Below are positions 21,357 to 61,510 of a DNA stretch of 64,000 nucleotides, piece by piece. The notes beneath the pieces were generated by a model that saw nothing but the letters and a program-made list of their open reading frames with translations, did not search any database and was not told where the DNA came from. A program made the translations under genes and the position numbers. Origin of the DNA: Terana coerulea (lineage: Eukaryota; Basidiomycota; Agaricomycetes; Polyporales; Phanerochaetaceae). The first letter of the stretch is position 1. Each line of letters starts with the position of its first letter. The stretch lies in NCBI GenBank assembly GCA_024811115.1, contig JAKOGH010001110.1, positions 124,001 to 188,000 of the forward strand, in the 5' to 3' direction.

Positions 21357-23692
21357 CTACTCTACCAGCTGCCGGAACTTCTCCTGGATCTCATTGTACA
21401 GCGCGTCCATCTTCTGCTTGATGTCCTCCTTGCCCTGCGTCGGCGACTGCAGCCACGCTCAGCACCGGTCCTGTGAACCGACACAAGCAGGCGACTCACC
21501 TCGAACTTCATTTGCGACAGCTTGTACATGATGTCGCCCGCCGACTCCCTGATCTTCGCAAACGTGACGTCGCCGGTGGCGACCGCCTTCACCGCCGAGT
21601 CGTGGAACGCGACAAAGTTCTTGAGCATCGCGCTCGTCTTGTAGAACGGGCAGAACCGGTCGTACTCGCTCATGCCGTTCTGCTGCAGGAAGTCGTCCTT
21701 CAGCATCCGCGCGACCTCGAGCGTGATCTTGTCGCCCTCGCCCAGCGCGCTCTTCCCGACCAGCTGCACGATCTCCGCCAGGTCCTCCTCCTTCTGCAGG
21801 ATCTCCTTCGTCCGCGTCCGCAGCTCGACGAAGCCGGGCTCGTTCGCCTCGTAGTGCGGCTCCAGGACCTTGGTGTACTTGGAGTAGGACACGTTCCAGT
21901 TCACGGACGGGAAGTGCTTCCGCTGCGCGAGCTTCTTGTCCAGGCCCCAGAAGACCTGCACGATGCCGAGCGTCGCTGACGTGACCGGATCTGAATAGTC
22001 ACCACCGGGGGGCGAGACGCTGCGAGAGGTGTCGTCAGCAATACGCGCATCTACAGCGCCCGATGCAGACTTACGCGCCAACAATCGAGACTGTGCCCTT
22101 GCGGACGGGGTTGCCCAAACATGTGACCTTGCCGGCACGCTCGTAAAGCTCGCCAGCTTCGTACCCAGGTACGCCGGGTAGCCAGAGTCGGCGGGCATCT
22201 CCGCGAGACGGCCAGAGATTTCACGGAGGGCCTCGGCCCAACGGGAGGTCGAGTCAGCCATCATCGCGACGTCCTTGCCCTGATCACGCCAGTACTCGGC
22301 GAGCGTAATACCAGTGTAGATTGACGCTTCACGGGCAGCGACAGGCATGTTGGAGGTGTTGGCGACGAGGGTTGTACGCTTCATGATGGGCTCTTTACGG
22401 TCACCAATTTCCATAGTGAGTTCTGGGAACTGGAAGCAACGTTAGTCCATACGATGATCCAGAACGAGTCTGATTGTGCACTTACTTCCATCAACACTTC
22501 AGCCATCTAGCGCGATTGCTCCGTGAGTACAGATATTGAACAGAATATGTATACCACACACCTCGTTTCCTCGCTCACCGCAACCGACGTAAATCATGAT
22601 CTCCGAGTTAGAGTACTTAGAGATCGCTTGCGAAATAACAGTCTTGCCACAGCCGAAGGCACCAGGAATAGCGGTGGTTCCTCCTTGCACACAAGGGAAG
22701 AGCGCGTCCAGGATACGCTGACCAGTCAACAAGGGGTAATCTGCCGTGTGCTTTTCCGCAACGGGTCGGGGTGCACGGACGGGCCAGACCTGCATCATCG
22801 TGTGCTGCGTAGTCTTGCCTCGAACTCTGTCTCGAGGACGATATCCTGAAACAGGCATCAGTGAAGGCCGTACAATCGATTCACTTAAAACGTACGTTGA
22901 CGGCATAGCTGCCCTTGTCCGCAACACGAGTAATTGTACCGAGGGCGCGAGGGCCAAGCATAATCTTGTGCTCATTCACAAGCGAGTTCTCGTACACCTT
23001 TCCGAAGATATCTCCGCCGGATATGTGGTCGCCGACCTGACCGAGCGTTGGAATTCAGTCATCCATTTTCGATATTGACGTCACGTCGAGTACGTACTTT
23101 GAAGTTAATGGGATCAAAGTCCCATTTCAGACTGCGGTCCAGGGCTTCGGTGTTAATACCTCTTGGAATGTAGATTGACTTTGACAATTCTTGGATAGAC
23201 TGTTCTACGTGAGAACGGAAATTTCACCAATGCGATAGGGCACTTACTCGTAGCGGTCGCTGAATACCATCGACAATATTCTCCATAAGACCTAAATGGC
23301 AACGCTTGCATAGAGCATCCAACGAACAGGCACATTATGGGCTTACCTGGCCCCAGCTCAACACTTAAGGGTTTGCCTGTCCGTAGCACGGGGTCGCCGA
23401 CCGTGACTCCCGAAGTCTCTTCGTACACTTGAATCGTCGCCTTGTCGGCATCAATCCTAATCACCTCTACGGTCCATCAGACAACAACCCACATAAAATC
23501 CTGCAAATAATGCCCACCTCCTACGAGCTCATTGTGCCCTACACGCACGAGTTCATACATGGCCGAGCCCGTCATGTTCTCTGCGATGACGACGGGGCCG
23601 GACACGCCAAAGACCTGGCCGAAGCGCGACTCGCGCTCCTCATCTCTGACCTTCGGCAGGTCGCGCTTTGCGTTTTGCAGTGCCCCCGCCAT
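21357..23692 (-). CDS. VMA1: V-type proton ATPase catalytic subunit A
   Basis: Catalytic subunit of the V1 sector; it hydrolyses ATP to drive proton pumping into vacuoles and endosomes. The start is [19 protein letters not shown], then [39 protein letters not shown] and [20 protein letters not shown]. The Walker A is GAFGCGKT, followed by [10 protein letters not shown] and [20 protein letters not shown]. It ends KFRQLVE-stop. Length and order match the family. No intein interrupts the P-loop, unlike in some yeasts. At least eight introns are present. Two one-base deletions break the frame in invariant segments: FEGK at 22818-22819 and ASFYERAGK at 22145-22147, both in homopolymers. The gene is divergent from RPT1 with 209 bp between starts. 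Confidence 0.95.
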
Positions 23693-32244: not shown

Positions 32245-34216
32245 TCAGGTCGCGGAAGGTATGTCCCCGTTGTCCGTCTCATCGTCTGCACGTGCAGGCA
32301 ATGCCTCCCGCCGCCTTTCCTCCTCTTTCCTCGCCCTTCTGGAGAGATTGCGATGTTTCCGTGTCCCTTCATGCGCCTTCCACTCGCCCCCCTCCTCGAT
32401 CATGACCGGCTGGCCGTCGTAGGCAGAGCAGATGGGGCACACGATCTTCCGCCGCGCTTGCAGCACCGCCGCCGGCCTAGATATGTACCTGACGGTCAAA
32501 CGCCACTGTTACCGCGGGATAAAACGACAAACTGACTCTATGGGCTTGGCCGCCACCGCCAGCAGCGTCTCAGCGGTCTCTGACAGGGACAGCGGATCGG
32601 GGAGAGGGCGCTGTGCGAGGAAATCTACAGATGTGTCAGGCCTCGGTGGTCTGGACCTTCCGCATTAAAGATGGGCCTACCTTCCACTATACTTTGTGCT
32701 GCCCGCTGCACGCCGACTGTCCACTTATCTCCGAGCTCTAGGCCTTGCATCAGCGACGCCATAACGACGGATCGTTCCCGTCGACTTACCACTGGCGTCC
32801 AGAAGATACGCCGGCACGACGTCGCCGTCTTTGGGAGTGTCCTCACTACCTGCGCGCGCAGCCATATTCGCCTCCCGCGCCGCCGGAAGCAGTTTATTTC
32901 GAATCCAGCTCACTTGTTTCTTCGCGTACTGCCGCGTCGACAGCTTCATGCGCTCAACGGCAGCCTGGAAGACTCGGTCGCGCTCGAGAGGTTCATTTGA
33001 CCAGTCCCGCGCAAGGTACGTCGAGAACTCCTTGTAACCTGATACGCAAAGTAGAAATCACTTTTAGTACATCTGGCTCTGATCCGCCGTGATATTTGCT
33101 TACCTATGGATTGATACATGCCTAGAGTATAGTCTGTCGACGACGTGCTTCCCTCTGAATCGATATCCATGCTGTTCCCCCGCGGCAGAGTTGGCGGCGA
33201 TGCTTGCTGCGCGATGGTCATGAGCGCTTGCACTTCCTCAAGAAGCCCTTGCTACTGACGAAGTATGGTAATGAGCATCGGAATACAAGGTACTCTCCGG
33301 AAGGCTGTACTCACCTCCAGCATCTGATCAACACGGCTGTCTAGCCTAGGATTGAGGACTTCTGGCCGCGCGTAGAGCCAGAAGCACAGTGTGCGATACC
33401 TGCCGTAAGAATAAGGGCTTCCGAATGCAATGTATAGCGGTGTCACTGACCTGGGCTGTGGCCGTGTCTGCGACTGCTCGGAAATGATCTCGCTAGGCAG
33501 ACGGCCCGTCTGCTTGGTGAGTTCCAGACTCCTGAGTACTTTCCGCGTGTCCTTCCAATGCCAGCGCATTGCAACAGGTGGATCAAGCGCGGCGAGAAGA
33601 CGGTGCATCGTCAGCGCGAGCTGTGGGTTCGCCTCAGCGGCGAGCGCGGTCTCCGGAAGGTCCTCGTTGTACAAGGCTGCCAGATCCGCGGGAAGCGAGG
33701 CAATGGCCTCAGCGAGCCGTGCGGACTGCTTGGCGGAAACTTGGGCCGGTGCGTCTGGATCTTGGGGGAAGGCGGCGAGTCTACCTGGGAACACCAAGTG
33801 CTGGATCCAGTAGGACGTCCCACCCACAACAATGGGTATTTGATTCCGCTGGTGCGTCTCGTCTATCTTCAGCGCGCAGGGTCAACCAAGAGTGCCGCAA
33901 GAAACGTAAAGGAACAACCAACCACACGCATGGCATCTTTGACCCATTCTCCAACGACATATTGTTCGCCTGGGTTCTTGAAGCCCATGAGAAGGTGCTC
34001 AACGCCGCACTGTTCCTCGAGCGGGACTTTGTTCGTGAGGATGTCTATGCCAGCGTACACCTGCATAGCATCCGCGTTTATGATCCGCGCGCCACTGTAC
34101 CCATGCAGCTGCGGCTTAGCACCATTTCTCGCCAGTGCCAGCGCGAGCTCTATGGCAAGCTTGGACTTTCCGACGCCTGTGGTACCGCATACGGCGATGA
34201 GGGGGCGGAGAGACAT
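32245..34216 (-). CDS. MOD5: tRNA dimethylallyltransferase (isopentenyltransferase)
   Basis: Transfers a dimethylallyl group to A37 of tRNAs reading UNN codons; acts in cytosol, nucleus and mitochondria in other fungi. The start MSLRPLIAVCGTTGVGKSKL carries the P-loop GTTGVGKS. Then come IINADAMQVYAGIDILTNK, NPGEQYVVGEWVKDAM and PIVVGGTSYWIQHLVFPG. Middle exons give MRWHWKDTRKVLRSLELTK, CFWLYARPEVLNPRLDSRVD, YKEFSTYLARDW and RQYAKKQVSWIRNKLLP. A C-terminal C2H2 zinc finger (CPICSAYDGQ, then WKAHEGTRKHR) is typical of eukaryotic members. All introns I checked keep frame (donors include GTGGTT after DAMR). The second Met of yeast Mod5 used for dual targeting has no obvious counterpart here. Confidence 0.92.
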
Positions 34217-39839: not shown

Positions 39840-42800
39840 TCATTTGGCGAGCTGCAGATTCGAGGGGAGCGGTACATGAGCGATCGCGCCGGCAACGAGC
39901 ACAGGCAGACCTACCATTGTCCGACTAGAATGACTGGAGTGGTACGAGAGCGACTGGGTCTGCGAGGTGCGGTACGACCGGGACGAGCCGAGCGTCGCTG
40001 CGTGCAAGCTGCTCGAGTTGCTGGGCGTGGTGGGCACGGCGGCGCCAGACGTGATGCGGCTCGTGCGCGCGGTGAGCGGCGTCGGCGCGCTGATGAGCGA
40101 CTTCTTCGGGGTCTCCTGCAGCTTCGCGGCGCGGCTGCCGACGTTCGAGGACGACGAGCCGAGCAGGGTCTTCGACGCGCTGGGCGACGGGCTCGTCACC
40201 TTCGTGCGTGGCTTTGTGTTGCCCCCCGTAATGAACGGGTGGCGGAGCGCCGCGTGCGGCTTGAGCCGCCGCTCGGGATCCCAGCAGAGGCACTTCGCGA
40301 TGAAGTCAACAAACATATCATCGTCCGAGCGGAGCACCTGCGCCAGGCTCTTGGATCCTGGACGTCGCCGACGGCCCTTGGAGTTGACGACCGGACGCGG
40401 GGCGCCAGTTTGGTCTGGAGAGAGTTCAGACTCAGCAGCACACACCGACAAGCTGGGAACTTACCGAAGAACAGCCTCCGGCGAGAACTGCGGTTGACAA
40501 AGTCCTTGTCCGGTACTCCAAGCACTTCCATGATACATGAGAGCTGCTCCTGCTCGTTCTCACCAGGGAAGATGGGGAAGCCTGTATATAGCTCGGCCAT
40601 GATGCATCCCAGACTCCACATATCGATGGCCATGTGGTAGTTCATGCCCAGGATGACTTCAGGTGACCGATAGAAGCGACTCTGAATGTACGTGTAGACT
40701 ACCAGACAGGTAAGTATACATGCATCGCATGTGACAGAAACGCAGTGCTCACTCTTCTCATGCTCGAAGCAGCTGCTACCGAAGTCAATGACCTTCAGTG
40801 CGCTTTTCGCCGGATGGCGAAGCAAGACGTTCTGTACCGGCCAACAGTCAGCCTGGCTGAGCTTCGGGGGAACGGGCTCACGTACTTCGGGTTTAAGATC
40901 ACAGTGCACGATGCGATGGTGTCGCATGAGGGCCAACGAGTGCAGCATCTGGCTCGTAAACCGCCGAATGAGGCCCGTCGAGAACCCCACAAAGCTGTTG
41001 GCCTTGATCAACTCATACAAGTTAATGCTCAGCAGCTCCATCGCGATGCAAAGGTGACCACGGAAGTAGAAATGCTCAGTCATCTTGATGACATGATGCT
41101 TTTCCTCAGGATCCTGGGATTTTGGGTCAGTACAACCTTTGCATCCAAGTAAGTCGACTAACCCATTTGCGCAAGTTATCAAGGATTTTGATCTCCACTA
41201 ACGCCTGGTGGTGGAATCGTTTCTTGTTGCGAATGATCTTGATAGCGACGGACTCGCCGGTGCAGTGGTCGCGACAATGCAGGACCTGCCCGAAGGAGCC
41301 TTTGCCAAGCGTATCTATGAGTTCGTAACGATATGCAAGGTGGTCTCGTAACACTACTAGGTAGTCTCCTCGGTCGTCGTCGTAGCCGTGATTGTTCGTA
41401 GAGTTGTCCAGGGTCGCCAGCTTTTTGTCACTCTTCGGGCCGATGAAGTACACGGAAGGATAATCCAGTATCTCCTTGCACTCATATTCAGAAAGGTACT
41501 GCACTTGACTGCTCTTCAAGATTGCTGTTACCGTATGTGAGCACAATGACAAGCTATAGCTGGAAGAGGAACCTACCTGCGGGCGATGATGGATTTGCTG
41601 GGGGAATAGGTTCAGGGAAGCGTAACATTCCCTCAATCTCGGCTTGAGATGCGCCGCTCGCCAATTTCTTCGCCTGCTGTTTCTTGATATACTGCAGCAT
41701 CTCCTCATCTCCGATTAGCTCATCCTCATCCACAAGACTCGACACGGGCGACGGTGTAGACGTCGTCGTATGCCGGCTAGTGGACGGAGACGCCATAACC
41801 TGAGCCAGGCTCTGGCTGTTGGACGCCGACGAGTTCCGCGTGGTGGGCAACGAGATCTTGGGACTGAGCAACTTGAGGCCTTTCGAGGGCGACAGAGCAG
41901 AGAACCGATGACTCTGCGCGGGCGGAGGCTCCTTCATTCTGCGACGCAGCCGCAGCGTTGTTGATGGAGGTCACAGGAGCCCGTTGAGGACTTGCGCAGC
42001 CCGCCGAGCGAGATTGACTCCCGGTTCTTGCGTGAGCTCAATCCGCTGACGGTCGAGGAGCTGGCAACCGGCACCTGCCGCGGGACCCGAGAGGTGGCGG
42101 CGGTGGATGGCGACGCCCGCACCGACTGCCGCTGAGGCGCCGCGCTCGATGTGGCCTTTGGGGTCTGGCCACTCTCGAGCACGCCGAACTCATTAGTAGA
42201 GTCGTTGACCAGAGGCGAGTTGCCACGGGAGCCGACGTTGGTAGACTGGACAAGGACGCTCGCTCGCCTCTCAGCTTTGCCCTTGAGCGTGGGCGAGTTT
42301 GGCAGCGGAAGAGCGGCTCGAGATACGCGGAATCTTCGTAGGGGTCTCCTTGGAAAGAGTGGCGGACGTGTTAAGCGAGGACGGCGGGGGCGGCTCGCGC
42401 GATGACTGATGTGGTAAAGTGCCGACGCTCGGGGATCCAGCGATAGTAGGCAGCACACTCCGCGAGCTGCGCAACGATGAGTCCGACTGTTTCTGCATAG
42501 AGCTGACGGTCTGCGACGTGAGACGTGAGGACTTCGGGGTGCTCTGTGTTGAGGACAACGATGACGTCGATCCTGTCTTCATGTTGGCGAGACGTTGAGT
42601 GGTGGCCGGTGGCAGCGCCGAAACATGCAGCGGTGGCATCGCCACAGGCTCTTGTTTCTTCGGTTGCGCAGAGGACAAGGTCTTACGCACGTGTGAGCAT
42701 CCAGATATACACCCACATAAGCTTCGCGACGTACCTTGCCCCGCTTCCTGCCCATCAACACCGAAATCCGGCTCTCGCTGCGGTCTTTGTCCTCTTTCTT

Positions 42801-54096: not shown

Positions 54097-56434
54097 TCAT
54101 ACCCATACGACTGGTGTTGGTTCTTCCCGGGGCACTTCGACATGGGCCGCGTCCGCCGCCCGCAGCCGCGCGTGGACATCGGCCATGTCAGGACGATCTT
54201 CCGGATTCGTCTCGTAGCAATCCTGCATAAGCTGCCAGACTTCGTCCGTCACCCATCCCTCCTCCGGGGTGGGTCGCGTTGGGCGAAGATTATACATCGA
54301 GACTTGAACGAGGACCTGCTCATTGCGCCTGTATTCGGGGAAGGGGTGGGCACCGGTGAACACCTCCAGCATCACCATTCCAAAAGGACCAGATGTCGCT
54401 CTTGAAGCTGGGTGTCATGCTGCGGGCGAGTTCTGGCGCCGTCCAGCGGGGAGAAGGTTGGCGTGTGAAGGTGGCGATCGCCAAGTTCGCATCTTTTGCA
54501 GTGTCCAGGATGACTTTAGACATCCCAAAGTCGGATACGAGGGCCTCCCCCTGGATAGTGTAGTCAGTATGAATAGCAGCGCACATACATAGCGATCGAG
54601 CTCACTTCGTCATCGATGAGAATGTTGGCCTGTGAATGCAATGTTAGCTGTCAATGGTGATGGCAAGGCAAGGACGATAAAATCACGTACACCTTTCACT
54701 ACAGCCCGAATCCCAACGTTAGTATGTCTATCAAGTTTTGTACCAGCAGTACTCACGGTTGGCATGCAAGCTGCTCATTGTCACATGCAAATACTCCATA
54801 CCAGAGGCGGCACCAGCAAGCTGTGAAGTTGGTTTGCTACAGTCCGGTACTGTAAAGGTTGTGCAGACCACTTACTAGGTGTAGTTTGCTGGCATCTGGG
54901 TGAAACCTTCAGTAACTACCTAGCGGTCAGTTAACTTATCCCGTCATCGTGTGAAATTCACGTACGACATGATGTTCCCATTTTGCCACCACCGCGAAAC
55001 CTAGCCGCACAAAGCACAGTGAGAGAGGCATATGACGAATAACCGACACGGACTCACTAATGCGATATTTACAGCGCATTGATCCGAGAGGCCGATGAAG
55101 TGGTGAATGTGCCTATGCCTGTACTGGGCCCAGTTTTTGCATTCATTGAGGAGACGCTAGGTAGGTGTGATTAGGGTATAACCGACCGCTGATGAATATA
55201 ATGATGTACCTTTTTCGCCTTTTTCTTCCCTGCTTCTGAGGCCGCGCAGGCATTTGACTGACACCTATTAAGTGTCCCAAGAGGACTCGCAGTCAAAATC
55301 TATGATATTAGTCCTTCCGGCTCATTGCTCTTACCTTCGTGTCTTTTCTCAACCATCCGATATATATGTCCGTGAACTCTGCGCTCGCCTCCGGATAGTG
55401 TGCCTCAACGACTACGTTTCTACCCAAGTTGTCGTCTAGCCCAGTATTCCCGGTAATCGCAGCCATCTTGTTGACCGCGTCGACGATATCAGTGAAAAGA
55501 ACGTTGAACTCCGTCCTGGTCACAGGCACTCCCGCAAACGCCAACTTTGAGTCAGGGTCTCCACTATGCTCTTGCAATTGATTGATTACCTAGGACGTAG
55601 TTAGTATCACACTATATACGACAATGGAAGAGTGGTCGTACCAAGTTTGCGTCCTTGAGTAAGGCGTTGCCCGCCTCAGGACTTAAATTCTCAATCCTAG
55701 CTTGTAACCGGTCAACAACGGTACGGAATTCTTGGTTGTCATGTTCAACGTGGCCAAATTCCATGCGCGCGTTTATCATCGCGGCCACTCCTGCGAGGAC
55801 GGCCTTCGTCTGCGATACATGGAGTCGTGAGAGATTTCGCGATATCATACACCCAACTCACGTCGTACTTCATTAGTTCACTGTCCACAAGAAACTGACA
55901 CTCCTCAAGGTCTTTCGAGATTTGATCGTGTTTCACTAAAGTGTTCAGCTTGGGGCTATTACTGTTTTATATAATAAACTCACTGATAGCCTTCCAGCGC
56001 CCGTAAGAGCAGTACTCGTACAGCTTGCGCTGCGCATCCTCGAGTATCCTAAAAGGCCTTCTCTTCAGTATTGTGGCAACGTATACGAGGCAAGGGCCAC
56101 GCACGCGACGGTCTCCTTCGTAGGCTTTTCCAGCCCCATTCGGCCCAAGTCCTTGTTGCGCTCCTCGAACGTTTGCGCGAGGTCCGCACATCGTTGGGCC
56201 AAGCGGATACAGCCTTCCTATGTTCCGCAGTCCGGTCAGCTAACGTCAGACGCAGAATAACCAAGCACGTACTTGACGCCACTTTGACTGTTGTACGGTT
56301 TTCTGAATCGACTGCGCCACCTGTGCGACGACGTTAGGCCCTGGGATGGGGGTAATGCTCGCCGCGATGGAGATCGCGCTGATTCCTATGGTGGTGAACG
56401 AGCTGTCTACGAACTTATCGAAGACTGTAGGCAT
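54097..56434 (-). CDS. MLKL/HeLo-like N-terminal domain fused to a TKL-type pseudokinase (gene A)
   Basis: The start MPTVFDKFVDSSFTTIG is followed by an amphipathic ISIAASITPIPGPNVVAQ segment, then a helical bundle: EGCIRLAQRCADLAQTFEER, LEDAQRKLYEYCSYGRWKAI, ISKDLEECQFLVDSELMKYD. A linker (ARMEFGHVEHDNQEFRTVV) leads to the kinase fold. There is no glycine loop (EFTDIYIGWLRKDTK); the beta-3 Lys is kept (VSVKCLRG). The catalytic loop is HANLKGANILIDDE, with Asn replacing the catalytic Asp. DFG is intact (VSDFGMSK), then RWTAPEL and GWVTDEVWQLMQDCYE. An 8-nt microexon encodes part of the catalytic loop. One surplus T in an A4/T4 run (54382-54385) breaks DIWSF/GMVMLEV. By analogy with animal and plant MLKL it may be a membrane-acting cell-death or immune effector (inference). 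Confidence 0.72.
54691..54698 (-). other. 8-nt microexon TGAAAGGT in the catalytic loop of gene A
   Basis: Upstream intron: GTGAGT donor, TACTAAC branch site, GGCTGTAG acceptor. Downstream intron: GTACGT donor, GCTAAC branch, TTCACAG acceptor. Only this definition joins CATGCCAAC-C to GCCAACATT in frame, giving HANLKGANIL. Confidence 0.75.
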
Positions 56435-57162
56435 GGTTGGACGTTGTAGAGGGCAAGCACGGTGTGCGGTTCTAGCCCTTGCGCAGCTTGCACTTTACGT
56501 GCTTATAAGGTTCCACGCCTCGAGGACCGGGTCCTTGTACTTCTCTTCTTCTTGACGGAACCAAGGCAGTGATGATAGCCGCTAGATACGGCTGCAAGAC
56601 AACAGGAGGACATGACAGCACCGGTGACCGTTGACAACGTTGACACCTGGTGCACACAATAGCCTGGCGTACCGGGGACAACGGTGATCTGCGAAGACCA
56701 AACCTGGTCGGCAATCGCTCAAGTACACAACGCTGTGAACCGTGGTAAATAACCACGAGTCCGGATGCGACTGGTTTACGCACTTTAAACCCGAATCGCA
56801 GTGGTGGCTGCTGGACGGCTTACCACAAGCTTCATACACCATGAACGTGCCCAAACTACAAGAAAGTTGGGCTATTTGGTTCATACATGCATGCGATCTT
56901 GCATGGCCGTTGAGGACAAGAGCGAGAAGCTATTTTGACAGCTGGGCGCTTTTGCAACAACGTGCCTTCGAACCCGGGCGTCGCCAGGAATTTGCGTGAG
57001 TTTGGTAAATTCTTCTACCTCACTCTGCACACCACACAATTCCAGGGATAGATAGAATCATTTTGCGGGATATACATGTATTTACGAGGACAATTAAGAA
57101 GGTAACAAATATGAAGATATCAAATAACCAGCTACCATGGGCTTCGATGAGGATTGGAATCT
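56435..57162. other. Spacer between the two pseudokinase genes
   Basis: About 730 bp containing the promoter of gene A and the 3' flank of gene B. No coding region is supported. Confidence 0.5.
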
Positions 57163-59465
57163 CTAGCCCTCCGACTCCTTAAGTTGCCGTGCACTTTCAG
57201 CTTGGAGCAAAGCCTGGCGTACATGGGCAATATCCGGTCGAGCCTCAGGATTCCCCTGCCAACATCCCTCTTGCAAGAGCGTCCAGATGGCGTCGGTCAG
57301 GCAAGCGTTCAGTCGGACGCGCTCAGGCCTGGCGTCGCCACATCCCACTTGGAAGACAAAATCAGCCAGCGTCCGCAGCTTCTTCATGAAGGGCTCGTTC
57401 CCAATAAACACCGCCATCATCACCATGCCGAACGACCACACGTCGCTCTTTTGGGTGACGTTTTCGCTCCGAAGCACTTCTGGCGCCCACCACTGGTATC
57501 GAGACTGTGAGATGAGGATTGAGCTGCTCTCGCTCAGCGGCGAGGGCGTTTCCGTGCTGCGTGAGAACTTGAAGTCCGTGATGACAACTCTTTGCTGTGT
57601 GCCACTTAGCATCGGCTCGAATCGGTTTGACGTGAAGCTTACCTCGTCTGTGATGAGGATATTCGTCTTGGAAGAACGGTGGTTAGTTAATAAACGCACA
57701 AATTCGGTAGTGTTGTTCTACATACGGGTTTCACTGTCAAAAATGAGACGTTAGTCTGCGTCATACTGAATAGGATACGTCCGACTTACGATTCCCATGT
57801 ATGTATCCTGCATTGTGTAGATATTCGACACCGGCTGCAGCATCTGCTAGCTATGTGTAGACGATGAGTTCCTAAACCACGACAAAGTGCACCGGCCCAA
57901 ACGTACCAGTTGGAACTTCGAGTAGCGTGGGTTCCCAAGCGCAAACCTAGCGACATAATAAGCCTTGAGTAAGAAGATCTTTAGCTAGAGGAGAACCGCG
58001 CGTACTGCTTGATGTTCCCAAACTTCTGGTACCAAGGCGAGGCCTATCAATCCATAGATCAGCATGTAACATGACCTGAAGAGAAAATACATACTAGGGC
58101 GATCATTCCCTTGCAGTTCGTGGTATACCCTAAAAACTCATGAATATGGGAGTCCTCAAGAGCCAGCCATATCCGTAAATCGTTCTCCAGGAGCTATGCA
58201 TCACAGGTCAACAGCGGCCGTGTAAGCTTCCAAGAACAGTAACTTGCCTGGATCTCGTCTTCAGTGGAGGTAGTGGTCATTCGACGCACTGTCTTTAGTG
58301 TCAACTATCCGAACGACGTTATTAAATTCCGGTTGCATATGAAGATATAACACGTACCCGTCTCTCGTGCACTTTGTTCTTCAAGCGTCCAAGCCAGACG
58401 TGGTTCAGGTTGCCCGCTTCCTCTACACCATCCACCTCTATACGTTCGGTCAGGTCCAGAGTCCCAACATCCTTCCCAGTAGTGTCTGCTATTGACTGCA
58501 GCGACGCCTCGATGAGTTGGCGATGTTGAGCATATTGTCGATGATCCACAAACTCAGCCTCGAGATCCGGCAACACGGCATCTCGCTGCTGCAAGGAGTC
58601 AGAAGGCTTGAAAACGGGCTAGGCACAATGCGGACTAACCTGAAGATGCTTCTCTAACATCTTGTTCATGTTCTGCACCTGAATTGTGGTATCCTTCACG
58701 TCCGCCCTTACGGCGTTGACCCTTTCACCATTCTCCACCACCATCTTCCTGGTGACATGTTGACCTTTGCGCTACACATCGCCTCGTGTCAGTAAACAGT
58801 AATGAACTGGGGGCTGTGTACGTACACAAATTTCGTCCATGACGTCCTTCATCGACGTTTCACAACTCGCGACAGTGTGTGTAATCTTCGAACGAAAGCC
58901 TGTTCAGCAGTGAGTATTACCCCGGAGTCAATATGGCCAACAGGCTTACGCATCATCTTGAACCTGCTGTAGTCTTTGTACTGACGCACTTTGGCCTCGA
59001 TCTCCTTGAGCTTGCTTCGTGGCGTGTAAGTAAGAGGTCAAGCAGTCCCTCAAATGCTTGACGTACAGGACTGTGTCTTCTAAGGCGTGCTGCAGTTCTT
59101 CTTGCGCGGCTGGTTCGATATCTTGGAGGGTATTTATACAGGTCTGGCAAAGTTGTTGCAGCTTGCCACAGCGTGCCTAAGACAATGCTATGTCAGCGTA
59201 CTGCGCACAATGAGCATGCAATGCTGACCTTGAGTTGGGCGGACTTCTCTATTTCGCTGTGTAGGCTCTCAAGTACGCTTGATACGGAGCTTAGGTCGGT
59301 GGCCACAGGTGCAAGGGTGCAGCCTATGTCCACCATTGCCACCCCGCCATCGCTGCTGATCAGGCCTAAGAGGCGGAGTATTGGTTTGAAACCCATTTTG
59401 GCTGCGGTTTGGAGGCCAGCTTGGAGGGTAGGGACAAGCAGTACAAAGCGTACAGCTCCAGACAA
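57163..59465 (-). CDS. MLKL/HeLo-like N-terminal domain fused to a degenerate TKL-type pseudokinase (gene B)
   Basis: Paralogue of gene A. The start used is MSGAVRFVLLVPTLQAG; a second Met (MGFKPILRLLGLISS) is possible. Helical N-domain: CGKLQQLCQTCINTLQDIEP, LEDTVLLKEIEAKVRQYKDY, HTVASCETSMKDVMDEI. A linker (MNKMLEKHLQQRDAVLPDLE) follows. Kinase fold: the glycine loop is absent (EAGNLNHVWLGRLKNK), the beta-3 Lys is replaced by Arg (TVRRM), the catalytic loop is HGNLKPTNILITDE (Asp to Asn), and DFG has become DFK (ITDFKFSR). Structural motifs persist: RYQWWAPEVL, DVWSFGMVMMAVFIGNEPFM, and NPEARPDIAHVRQAL. It is therefore almost certainly inactive as a kinase. About twelve introns occur, one with a GC donor. 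No frame break was found. It ends ARQLKESEG-stop. Confidence 0.72.
57726..57733 (-). other. 8-nt microexon TGAAACCC in the catalytic loop of gene B
   Basis: Same position, length and phase as the microexon of gene A. The upstream intron ends TTTTTGACAG. The downstream intron starts GTATGT, has CTAACC as branch site and ends CCAAG. Splicing yields HGNLKPTNILI. Confidence 0.75.
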
Positions 59466-59895
59466 GTCGAGTAGTTATTAGGCCACCCACGCGCCCTTGT
59501 ACTCGTCTTCCTGCTTCCATCATAACGGCTGTGACAATAGGCGGCTCAAAGCTTGTCACACAGCTTAGAGATGTATTAGGGAGCTCACCTGGCACCTAGC
59601 GACCCTCACACTCGCCTCGACGTCCCAAGAACCCGGGAGACCTCCTCCTTAGGCACAAAAGCGGTACATTCTGCAGGTCCTCGAGGAACAATAAATGCAC
59701 AGCCGGTGTCATGTTGCCTAGGAAAGCCTTTGCCGCATGAAGTCCTGGCCGTGGGATACTCGATCCGTTTGAAAGGCCAGGCGTCCTCGTCCAGGAAACG
59801 CGGAGAAGGCGGAGAGTCGCCGAAGACAAGGATGATTTATGGGCGCCTGCATACCCGGGCAATATGGGCGTCTGTGGGCTCGAGTCTCGACCGCG

Positions 59896-61510
59896 ATGTC
59901 CCGCAAGTATCGTCCCAACAAGCGGTCCCATACTCAAGCCTTTCCGGCTCAGGAACCTGTCGAGCAAGAGCAGGATATTGACGTACAAGTCGAGGCACCC
60001 GTACCTCTCATAATTGACGTGGATGAGCTCGAATTGCAGAAGGAACAGCTAGCGGAACAGCCAGACGGCGAGCAACCCGTCCAGGAGGAGTCGGAGGAAG
60101 ATGTCAAGAGGAAGCAAGAGATCTGGGAGGCATTTCAGGAGGAGAATCATGAAGGTGCGTTGATGTCGCATATCACGCCTGGCTGCAGGGACTTACTGTC
60201 GGCACCAGTCCTAGAGCAGCTGCCCCTGTCCCTGCAGCGGTCGTACTCTCTCATACGGGAGCTAGACGAACAGGTAACCAGTACGTTCACCGCACCTTCT
60301 CTACGATATGTTACACAATGGCGTAGACTACAATACGCAGATGCTCGCTACGTTCAAGAGCTATGCCGCCTTGCGCAAGTCTCTGGCAGCGATGTCTGAG
60401 CCTGCTTCAAGTCAACCCGCAGACCCAATCACACCAAGCACCCCACCTCCAGAAGCAACGACATCTACCAATGGAGTAGTGAAGCCTGCTGCTGGGTTAG
60501 CTGAGCCGCAACTGTCTAGTCGCGAGATGTTGAGCAGCATTGCGCAGATGGCGGATGAGAGTGTACGGTCCTCACGAGAAAAGCTCAACATTTCGCGCTT
60601 CGCTTGCGGTCTGGTATGCCCTACACCCCCTGTCTCAGAACGTTGCCCTCTGATATAACCACAGATAGACCGCTACATCCGACATCTCGACCGGGCTATC
60701 AAGGAGCAAGAAGCAGCGATTTCAATAGGCACAAGACCTGGCACGCATCCCGCACACATCATTCTCCCAGAGCTGGTGGTCCCTGCCGGGCCCCGTGCCC
60801 CCAAGTCCCTGCAAACGTCCCTCATGGACGACTTGATAGACGAAGACGAGCCGCCAGAGGAAGTGGTCGAGGTTCCAGCAGAGCCCGTCGCGCCTGTCGC
60901 TGAACCCGAACTGGTGGTTGAACCTCCAGCGCCGCCACCGCCACCACCACCGCCTCCACTTCCCGCCTCCGCCGGTGCGCGGAGCAAAGAGACGGAAGTC
61001 ACGGCGGCAGTCCTCGCAGCCGCAACCACAGGTGCAAGAGCAGGTGCCCGCGGAACCAGAGATTACAGAGATTGTGGAGATTGTGGAGATTGAGGCCGAG
61101 ATCGAGGTGCCTCCAGAGCCGAAGTCCCGTCTTCCGTCTGTGAAACTTACCCTCCCCCCACCACCGCTTCCCGAATCGGACATCATTCCGGAGCAGGAGC
61201 CGTTATACTGTTACTGCAACAGGCCTTCGGAAGGCACCGTACGTACCTTCCTCCATGTAGCTGCGGAGAAGTCGCTCACGGTGTGCCACAGATGATTGGT
61301 TGCGACAACGCGGATTGCAAACGCGAATGGGTGAGTCGAAGCGCCAAACTTATCTCAGAATTTCAAGGCATTGACACATGGATATAGTTTCACATTCCAT
61401 GTCTCGGCATGGTTGAAAACGAGGTTCCAGTGGGCGAATGGTTTTGCCAGGACTGCCAGTCCAACACTGTCCAGCGGAAGTCAAAGAAGGGGCGCCGTCG
61501 CAAGCGGTGA
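59896..61510 (+). CDS. ING-family PHD-finger protein (histone acetyltransferase/deacetylase subunit)
   Basis: Nuclear H3K4me3 reader of a chromatin-modifying complex. MSRKYRPNKRSHTQAF is followed by an acidic segment, then the ING N-terminal helices: VLEQLPLSLQRSYSLIREL, DEQVTNYNTQMLATFKSYAA (after a GTACGT intron) and IDRYIRHLDRAIKEQEAAI. A long Pro/Glu-rich spacer holds EPPEEVVEVPAEP and a poly-Pro tract. The C-terminal PHD finger reads [32 protein letters not shown] and GEWFCQDCQS, then a basic tail KSKKGRRRKR-stop. One surplus T at 60960-60961 breaks the frame inside the poly-Pro tract; dropping it joins PPPL to PPPPVRGAKRRKSRR. Which of the Yng1, Yng2 or Pho23 classes it belongs to is uncertain. 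Confidence 0.88.

Follow-up and report, generated by a model that had tools for sequence, protein, structure and literature searches.

A tandem pair of predicted pseudokinase genes with MLKL-like N-termini in the basidiomycete Terana coerulea, probably belonging to a fungal MLKL_N–kinase family

Results

The window analyzed here is a stretch of 64,000 nucleotides (nt) from Terana coerulea and forms part of contig C834 in an assembly of 48.4 Mb and 896 contigs. Closely spaced short introns and numerous TKL-like kinase matches are in keeping with a mushroom-forming basidiomycete. On the minus strand of the window lie two adjacent genes, hereafter gene A and gene B, each of which joins an N-terminus resembling the Pfam family MLKL_N (PF22215; cut-off 27 bits) to a kinase domain of the tyrosine kinase-like (TKL) type (Table 1). 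An initial annotation had proposed two neighboring genes on one strand at about this place, and both were found there. Their exons were spliced by eye, and automatic models were made alongside with a splice script; for the kinase part of gene A, some of the splice sites were picked with gene B in view. Gene B reads through without interruption, and its 13 introns measure 48–59 nt, 12 of them with GT–AG and one with GC–AG borders. The automatic model of B is identical to ours up to ...SKFQL and then diverges around the small exons and the C-terminal end. For the small exons, both models therefore depend on the continuity of kinase motifs and on the correspondence between A and B.

Gene A, as assembled, loses its reading frame at two places, so that of the proposed gene pair only B stands as an intact gene. 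The in-frame N-terminal part of A encodes 279 residues in six exons. The first break is the out-of-frame join of the exon that encodes the b3 strand, and the second lies in the kinase C-lobe; both fall in or beside single-base runs. To keep its frame open, the automatic model of A has to leave out the b3 strand together with part of the C-lobe. Beyond the break, the tail of A still matches B with 40% identity over 84 query residues. We looked for a second copy of the A locus against which the breaks could be checked, and none was found in the assembly. The assembly does contain near-identical duplicate contigs (L053/L054, L018/L019, and L021/L022), which differ in part by small indels, often in homopolymers. 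Between L053 and L054 there are five gap openings against one mismatch in 3302 columns, whereas mismatches outnumber gap openings in the other five of six near-duplicate comparisons; in the four comparisons with printed gaps, the majority of the gaps are a single base long, and many of them occur within or as part of single-base runs. Caution is therefore advisable with other frame breaks in this genome. Given these indels, error and decay are not separable for gene A: its breaks may be assembly errors or may reflect decay.

Both genes encode a TKL-type kinase domain, as had been annotated, with matches to PF07714 at E = 6.3e-31 for the B domain and 2.6e-19 for the kinase piece of A. With HANLKGAN in A and HGNLKPTN in B, the catalytic loops bear out the annotated replacement of the catalytic Asp by Asn in both genes; after each of the HAN and HGN triplets come a single base, an intron, and then an exon of only 8 nt. 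At the position of the Gly loop, the sequences EASAEFTDI in A and EEAGNLNHV in B have lost the motif. The b3 Lys is kept, as VSVK within the broken exon of A and as LTLK in B, and the DFG motif is preserved in A and altered to DFK in B. Loss of the HRD Asp usually abolishes phosphotransfer. Since both proteins have lost the HRD Asp and the Gly loop, and B the Gly of DFG as well, A and B are predicted to be pseudokinases, in agreement with the initial annotation. As in MLKL, the kinase fold of both lacks the catalytic Asp and retains the b3 Lys. In the activation stretch, 11 of 22 residues of B are Ser or Thr, compared with 5 of 25 in A.

The loss appears peculiar to this pair. Among catalytic loops read at related kinase loci of the genome (24, then four more), all 28 distinct loops carry Asp, and Asn occurs in A and B alone; true loops were distinguished from chance occurrences of the pattern by visual inspection, and some loci had no readable loop. 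A search for whole-protein homologs of B passed 821 sequences, of which the best 120 were mostly S6-kinase-like, ordinary kinases dominating. Another split between D and N was seen in P0001, a protein of 686 residues from a metagenomic source, which on reading contains two tandem TKL-like kinase domains, of which the first carries HGD and the second HGN.

Comparison of the by-eye models revealed that each of the 13 introns of A has its counterpart in B, in the same order. Intron phases are equal at 12 borders, namely six in the N-terminal part and six in the kinase part counted from exon 8, and the phase at the remaining border, after the broken exon 7 of A, is unreadable. Five of 13 exons at the same rank have identical lengths (65, 74, 99, 8, and 24 nt), a number reached in six of 100,000 trials with shuffled exon order. 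The kinase domains share 40% identity over 146 columns. The N-termini share 18% over 112 columns and align co-linearly with E = 6e-5 in a single comparison. From this agreement in introns and in both protein parts, we conclude that the sequences of A and B derive from an old tandem duplication of a whole gene. In the kinase tree, A and B pair with support of 83/94, and their branches are very long (3.32 for B, 2.48 for the stem). Such branches, together with the two frame losses in A, would suit a relic pair in which A is already decaying as a pseudogene, B is heading the same way, and the catalytic loss reflects decay instead of new function. We hold this to be unlikely, given that B has a clean open model of 14 exons, that the tail of A past the break still resembles B, that the breaks may be assembly errors of the kind seen between L053 and L054, and that both genes retain the kinase core and the codon for the b3 Lys.

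The N-termini were then compared directly with MLKL. Residues 1–138 of A match MLKL_N with E = 1.5e-4 and 21.7 bits over residues 36–122, and no other Pfam family is listed up to E = 10; the 279-residue piece gives 3.6e-4, and two further families match it less well, with E-values of 0.029 and 0.082. Residues 1–138 of B match the family co-linearly with E = 0.07 and 13.1 bits, ninth of 14 families, and the whole protein with 0.33. None of eight shuffled sequences matched MLKL_N. When a two-sequence profile of A and B was compared with the PDB, MLKL structures made up 6 of 16 among the matches listed, with E-values of 0.14–1.7; with a longer A+B profile they made up 5 of 9 among the matches listed, at 0.43–0.66. 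Taken alone, this direct evidence for a likeness to MLKL is weak and suggestive. The N-termini look helical; their helicity was gauged from hydrophobic moments alone. HeLo, PigL_N, SesA, and Goodbye from Pfam gave no match to A or B at E ≤ 1, nor to their N-termini at E ≤ 10. Among 5.8 billion proteins, the N-termini found no match at E ≤ 0.1 in a search that requires shared five-residue words, so that this result does not imply absence. Matches of the B N-terminus to the PADLOC models PbeC (1.8e-5) and ZorA (0.0025) look like coiled-coil likeness and were rejected.

The pair is not alone, since ten related genes elsewhere in the genome join an MLKL_N-like N-terminus to a TKL kinase. These sister genes emerged from 11 kinase loci that were opened because of their catalytic-loop region and not their N-terminus: N-termini of one kind were present in 9 of the 11, and none was seen by eye in L016 or L067. 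The tenth sister, on contig C42, came from a direct search; it is a near copy of the gene on C310 and may be broken, its first exon meeting a stop where the C310 gene reads on. Splice-script models of the sisters were trusted for the N-terminus and kinase N-lobe only, as their C-terminal ends look wrong. The Gly loop, the VAVK motif, and the catalytic-loop Asp are kept in all ten. The DFG position, read in the sisters other than L027, L028, L029, and L036, is DFD in L023.

Seven sister N-termini were aligned and tested; L036 and L037, in which the start of the first exon is unclear, and the later-found C42 gene were left out. All seven match MLKL_N (E = 2.2e-7, 6.1e-6, 3.6e-5, 1.4e-4, 1.1e-3, 0.012, and 0.21; 11.5–30.9 bits), which is the top family in six of them, and the match with E = 2.2e-7 passes the cut-off. 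SesA is matched by one sister, with E = 0.011. Compared with the PDB, a profile of the seven found full-length MLKL (4btf) as its best match, with E = 2.9e-5, or 2.1e-4 for the stretch alone; columns 1–110 of the profile align to MLKL residues 3–115, and MLKL accounts for 7 of 12 sequences among the matches listed. A genome-wide search with MLKL_N returned nothing at E ≤ 1, A, B, and the sisters included, because short exons defeat it.

The sisters also share an exon structure. An exon of 139 nt with start phase 2 and end phase 0, carrying the second half of MLKL_N, is possible in all ten; most had other splice choices, 139 nt being the choice common to all, and L036 needs a GC donor. The same 139 nt, bounded by the same phases, result in A and B from the sum of exons 3 and 4, with one extra intron inside. 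The first exon measures 197 nt in six of seven sisters, three of which have other options, and 191 nt in the seventh. Exons 1 and 2 of A and B together measure 275 and 278 nt, respectively, some 26 residues more than the sisters' first exon, and in each N-terminus the most hydrophobic window falls within this extension before the bundle. The MLKL_N score of A lies within the range of the sisters, so in this respect A scores like one of them. A profile of A and B ranked the seven sisters 1, 4, 6, 12, 24, 166, and 301 of 1057 targets, shuffles included. Searches with the sister N-termini did not recover A or B, and tblastn of the A and B N-termini on the fetched kinase loci gave chance-level matches only (best E 0.95). 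Furthermore, the kinase tree places the pair neither within nor outside the sisters. As the direct likeness between profiles is weak, membership of A and B in this family rests mainly on architecture and exon structure. Taken together, the MLKL_N matches of the sisters and the shared 139-nt exon point to what is probably a fungal MLKL_N–kinase family that includes a kinase-dead tandem pair. The annotated MLKL-like architecture of A and B therefore holds weakly by direct profile and better through the sisters and the shared exon, with the matches of both proteins staying under the Pfam cut-off.

As for the surroundings, ten neighboring open reading frames, a part of the genes in the window, were scanned with Pfam; six had a match and four had none. 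Besides the entries in Table 1, the matches comprise Fasciclin, and those to Pkinase come from two overlapping reading frames. No NLR, HET, or gasdermin family appeared among the Pfam matches of these ten. In the whole genome, the NACHT model PF05729 gave 18 matches, 16 of them over the cut-off and none on contig C834, so NLR-type ATPases probably exist on other contigs. PF17111 (named PigL_N) matched neither the genome nor any of 14 controls.

Table 1. Positions of genes A and B, their parts, neighboring features in the window, and the sister genes
Feature	Position	Strand	Basis or remark
Gene A: MLKL_N-like N-terminus and TKL pseudokinase (predicted), frame lost at two places as assembled	54097..56434	-	By-eye model
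Gene A, in-frame N-terminal part	56434..55335	-
A residues 36-138, MLKL_N-like stretch	55862..56329	-	Pfam MLKL_N match
A exons 3+4, 65+74 = 139 nt, start phase 2, end phase 0	55862..56048	-	By-eye model
A b3-strand exon (VSVK), 55 nt, out-of-frame join (first break)	55210..55264 (about)	-	By-eye model
A HAN (HRD Asp to Asn); DFG kept downstream (SDFGMS)	54758..54766	-	By-eye model
A 8-nt exon inside catalytic loop (LKG)	54698-54691	-	By-eye model
A second frame break, kinase C-lobe after SDIWSF	54383..54390	-	By-eye model
Gene B: MLKL_N-like N-terminus and TKL pseudokinase (predicted), frame intact, 14 exons, 512 residues	57163..59396	-	By-eye splice model
B residues 39-139, MLKL_N-like stretch (four-helix-bundle type)	58826..59282	-	PF22215 and sister exon homology
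B exons 3+4, 65+74 = 139 nt, start phase 2, end phase 0	58826..59014	-	Equals 139-nt exon of ten sisters, one extra intron inside
B kinase domain: LTLK kept, Gly loop lost, HGN, DFK	57208..58417	-	PF07714, 6.3e-31
B HGN (HRD Asp to Asn)	57791..57799	-	By-eye splice model
B 8-nt exon inside catalytic loop (LKP)	57733-57726	-	By-eye model; missed by splice script
B DFK (DFG Gly replaced)	57568..57576	-	By-eye splice model
Weak ING match, under cut-off; housekeeping-type neighbor	59836-60399	+	Pfam
ATP synthase alpha/beta with V/A-type C-terminus; housekeeping-type neighbor	21365-22441	-	Pfam
IPP transferase; housekeeping-type neighbor	33255-33881	-	Pfam
Pkinase; housekeeping-type neighbor	40199-41197	-	Pfam
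Sister genes L020, L023, L025-L029, L036, L037, L076	Contigs C849, C712, C310, C123, C117, C604, C42		Three on C123, two on C849

Discussion

The present comparison leads us to favor, by a narrow balance of judgment, a reading in which A and B arose by tandem duplication long ago within a fungal family that joins an MLKL_N bundle to a TKL kinase, both being kinase-dead and working by an MLKL-like release mechanism. The pair may thus form the branch without kinase activity in a fungal family devoted to cell death. The roles put forward in the initial annotation, a cell-death or allorecognition module divided between a regulator and an effector, are hypothetical at this stage, as gene A may be broken and the Pfam matches of the ten scanned neighbors include no immune-type family.

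A number of results weigh against this reading. The frame of gene A is broken twice, neither A nor B reaches the MLKL_N cut-off, and six of the seven sisters fall below it as well. In the PDB comparisons, hemolysin E and two designed proteins rank above MLKL with the A+B profile, as do keratin and a designed protein with the longer one. Scored against the sister profile, A is equaled by 36 and B by 3 of 1000 shuffles, and the reversed sequence of B comes fifth of 2388 targets, just behind B itself; hhalign of A and B against the sisters gave E-values of 0.012–0.019 with probabilities of 2–4%. The hydrophobicity of the N-terminal stretch is unexceptional, being reached by 209 and 790 of 2000 shuffles. 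For the kinase domain of B, the nearest named kinase in the PDB is RIPK1, and MLKL is absent from the best 60 of 2157 matches. Several of these points, namely the proteins that outrank MLKL and the near equality of B with its reverse, together with the noise-like appearance of B's own top Pfam matches, would be expected if the N-termini were generic coiled coils unrelated to MLKL that became joined to a TKL pseudokinase. That explanation seems quite improbable to us, as MLKL_N is the sole Pfam match of A residues 1–138, and the 139-nt exon agrees exactly in length and phase with that of sisters whose joint profile finds MLKL.

A different account accepts the same family and dispenses with an executioner: the bundle would only assemble complexes, and A and B would be regulatory pseudokinases, acting as decoys or scaffolds for the intact sisters. 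In its favor, a bundle of the same kind precedes an apparently active kinase in ten sisters, where a domain that only kills would be unexpected, and the change from D to N is confined to the pair among the 28 + 2 loops read. The known relatives of the domain, that is MLKL, HET-S, and the coiled-coil (CC) domains of plants, nevertheless act on membranes, according to the relevant parts of two reviews (PMC12881547, PMC10197012), and we regard the account as possible, if on the unlikely side.

Under the favored reading of an MLKL-like release mechanism, the kinase-dead domain would hold the bundle silent, as in MLKL. A signal would then arrive at the pseudokinase, in the form of a nucleotide, the binding of a partner, or phosphorylation of the activation stretch, which is rich in Ser and Thr in B; the phosphorylation might be performed by a catalytically intact sister carrying the same bundle. 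Once freed, the bundle would oligomerize on membranes and then kill or signal. An extended form of this scheme is a relay in which about ten proteins with a bundle and an active kinase, each combining RIPK and MLKL in one chain, would activate the kinase-dead pair through bundle–bundle contact and phosphorylation, giving a necroptosis-like process without separate RIPK and MLKL; this relay must be considered doubtful at present.

Among known systems, animal MLKL consists of a four-helix bundle, a brace, and a pseudokinase, and A and B resemble it in domain order, in the loss of the catalytic Asp with retention of the b3 Lys, and in the Ser/Thr-rich activation stretch of B; the profile of the sisters aligns to its N-terminal residues. 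In contrast to animal MLKL, A and B carry about 26 extra residues before the bundle, the kinase domain of B is closest to RIPK1 among the best 60 of 2157 PDB matches, and the fungal family also includes members with intact catalytic residues. Plant MLKLs combine bundle and pseudokinase outside animals, as A and B are predicted to do.

Within fungi, the HeLo, HELL, and BaMLKL domains belong to the MLKL bundle superfamily, and BaMLKL has an N-terminal extension before the bundle (PMC9815663, in the part available). They occur mostly on NLRs or separate effectors, as far as the available parts of PMC9815663 and PMC12881547 describe them, whereas the partner in A and B is a TKL pseudokinase. In the portion of PMC9815663 at hand, which deals with basidiomycete MLKL-like domains, mainly on NLRs and with N-terminal extensions, kinases are named twice, both times in the reference list. 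HELL domains in fungal kinase or pseudokinase proteins are already mentioned in print, in one sentence of the accessible text of PMC12881547, where plant MLKLs are cited as well; PMC10197012 is a review of fungal immunity. By the excerpted account of PMC8778642, MLKL homologs occurred, among the fungi studied there, only in Glomeromycotina, with Sel1 repeats. Expansions of TKL or TKL-related kinases in basidiomycetes, including FslK, resemble the present case, and the sections of PMC2838846 and PMC3937382 that were available describe them without mention of MLKL-type N-termini.

In summary, this study describes a tandem pair of predicted pseudokinases that probably belongs, with ten sister genes, to a fungal MLKL_N–kinase family. 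If the favored reading is true, this fungus would possess a cell-death switch built on a kinase, and not on amyloid motifs or NLRs. The pair and its intact sisters would then make the origin of kinase-controlled necroptosis testable outside animals and plants.

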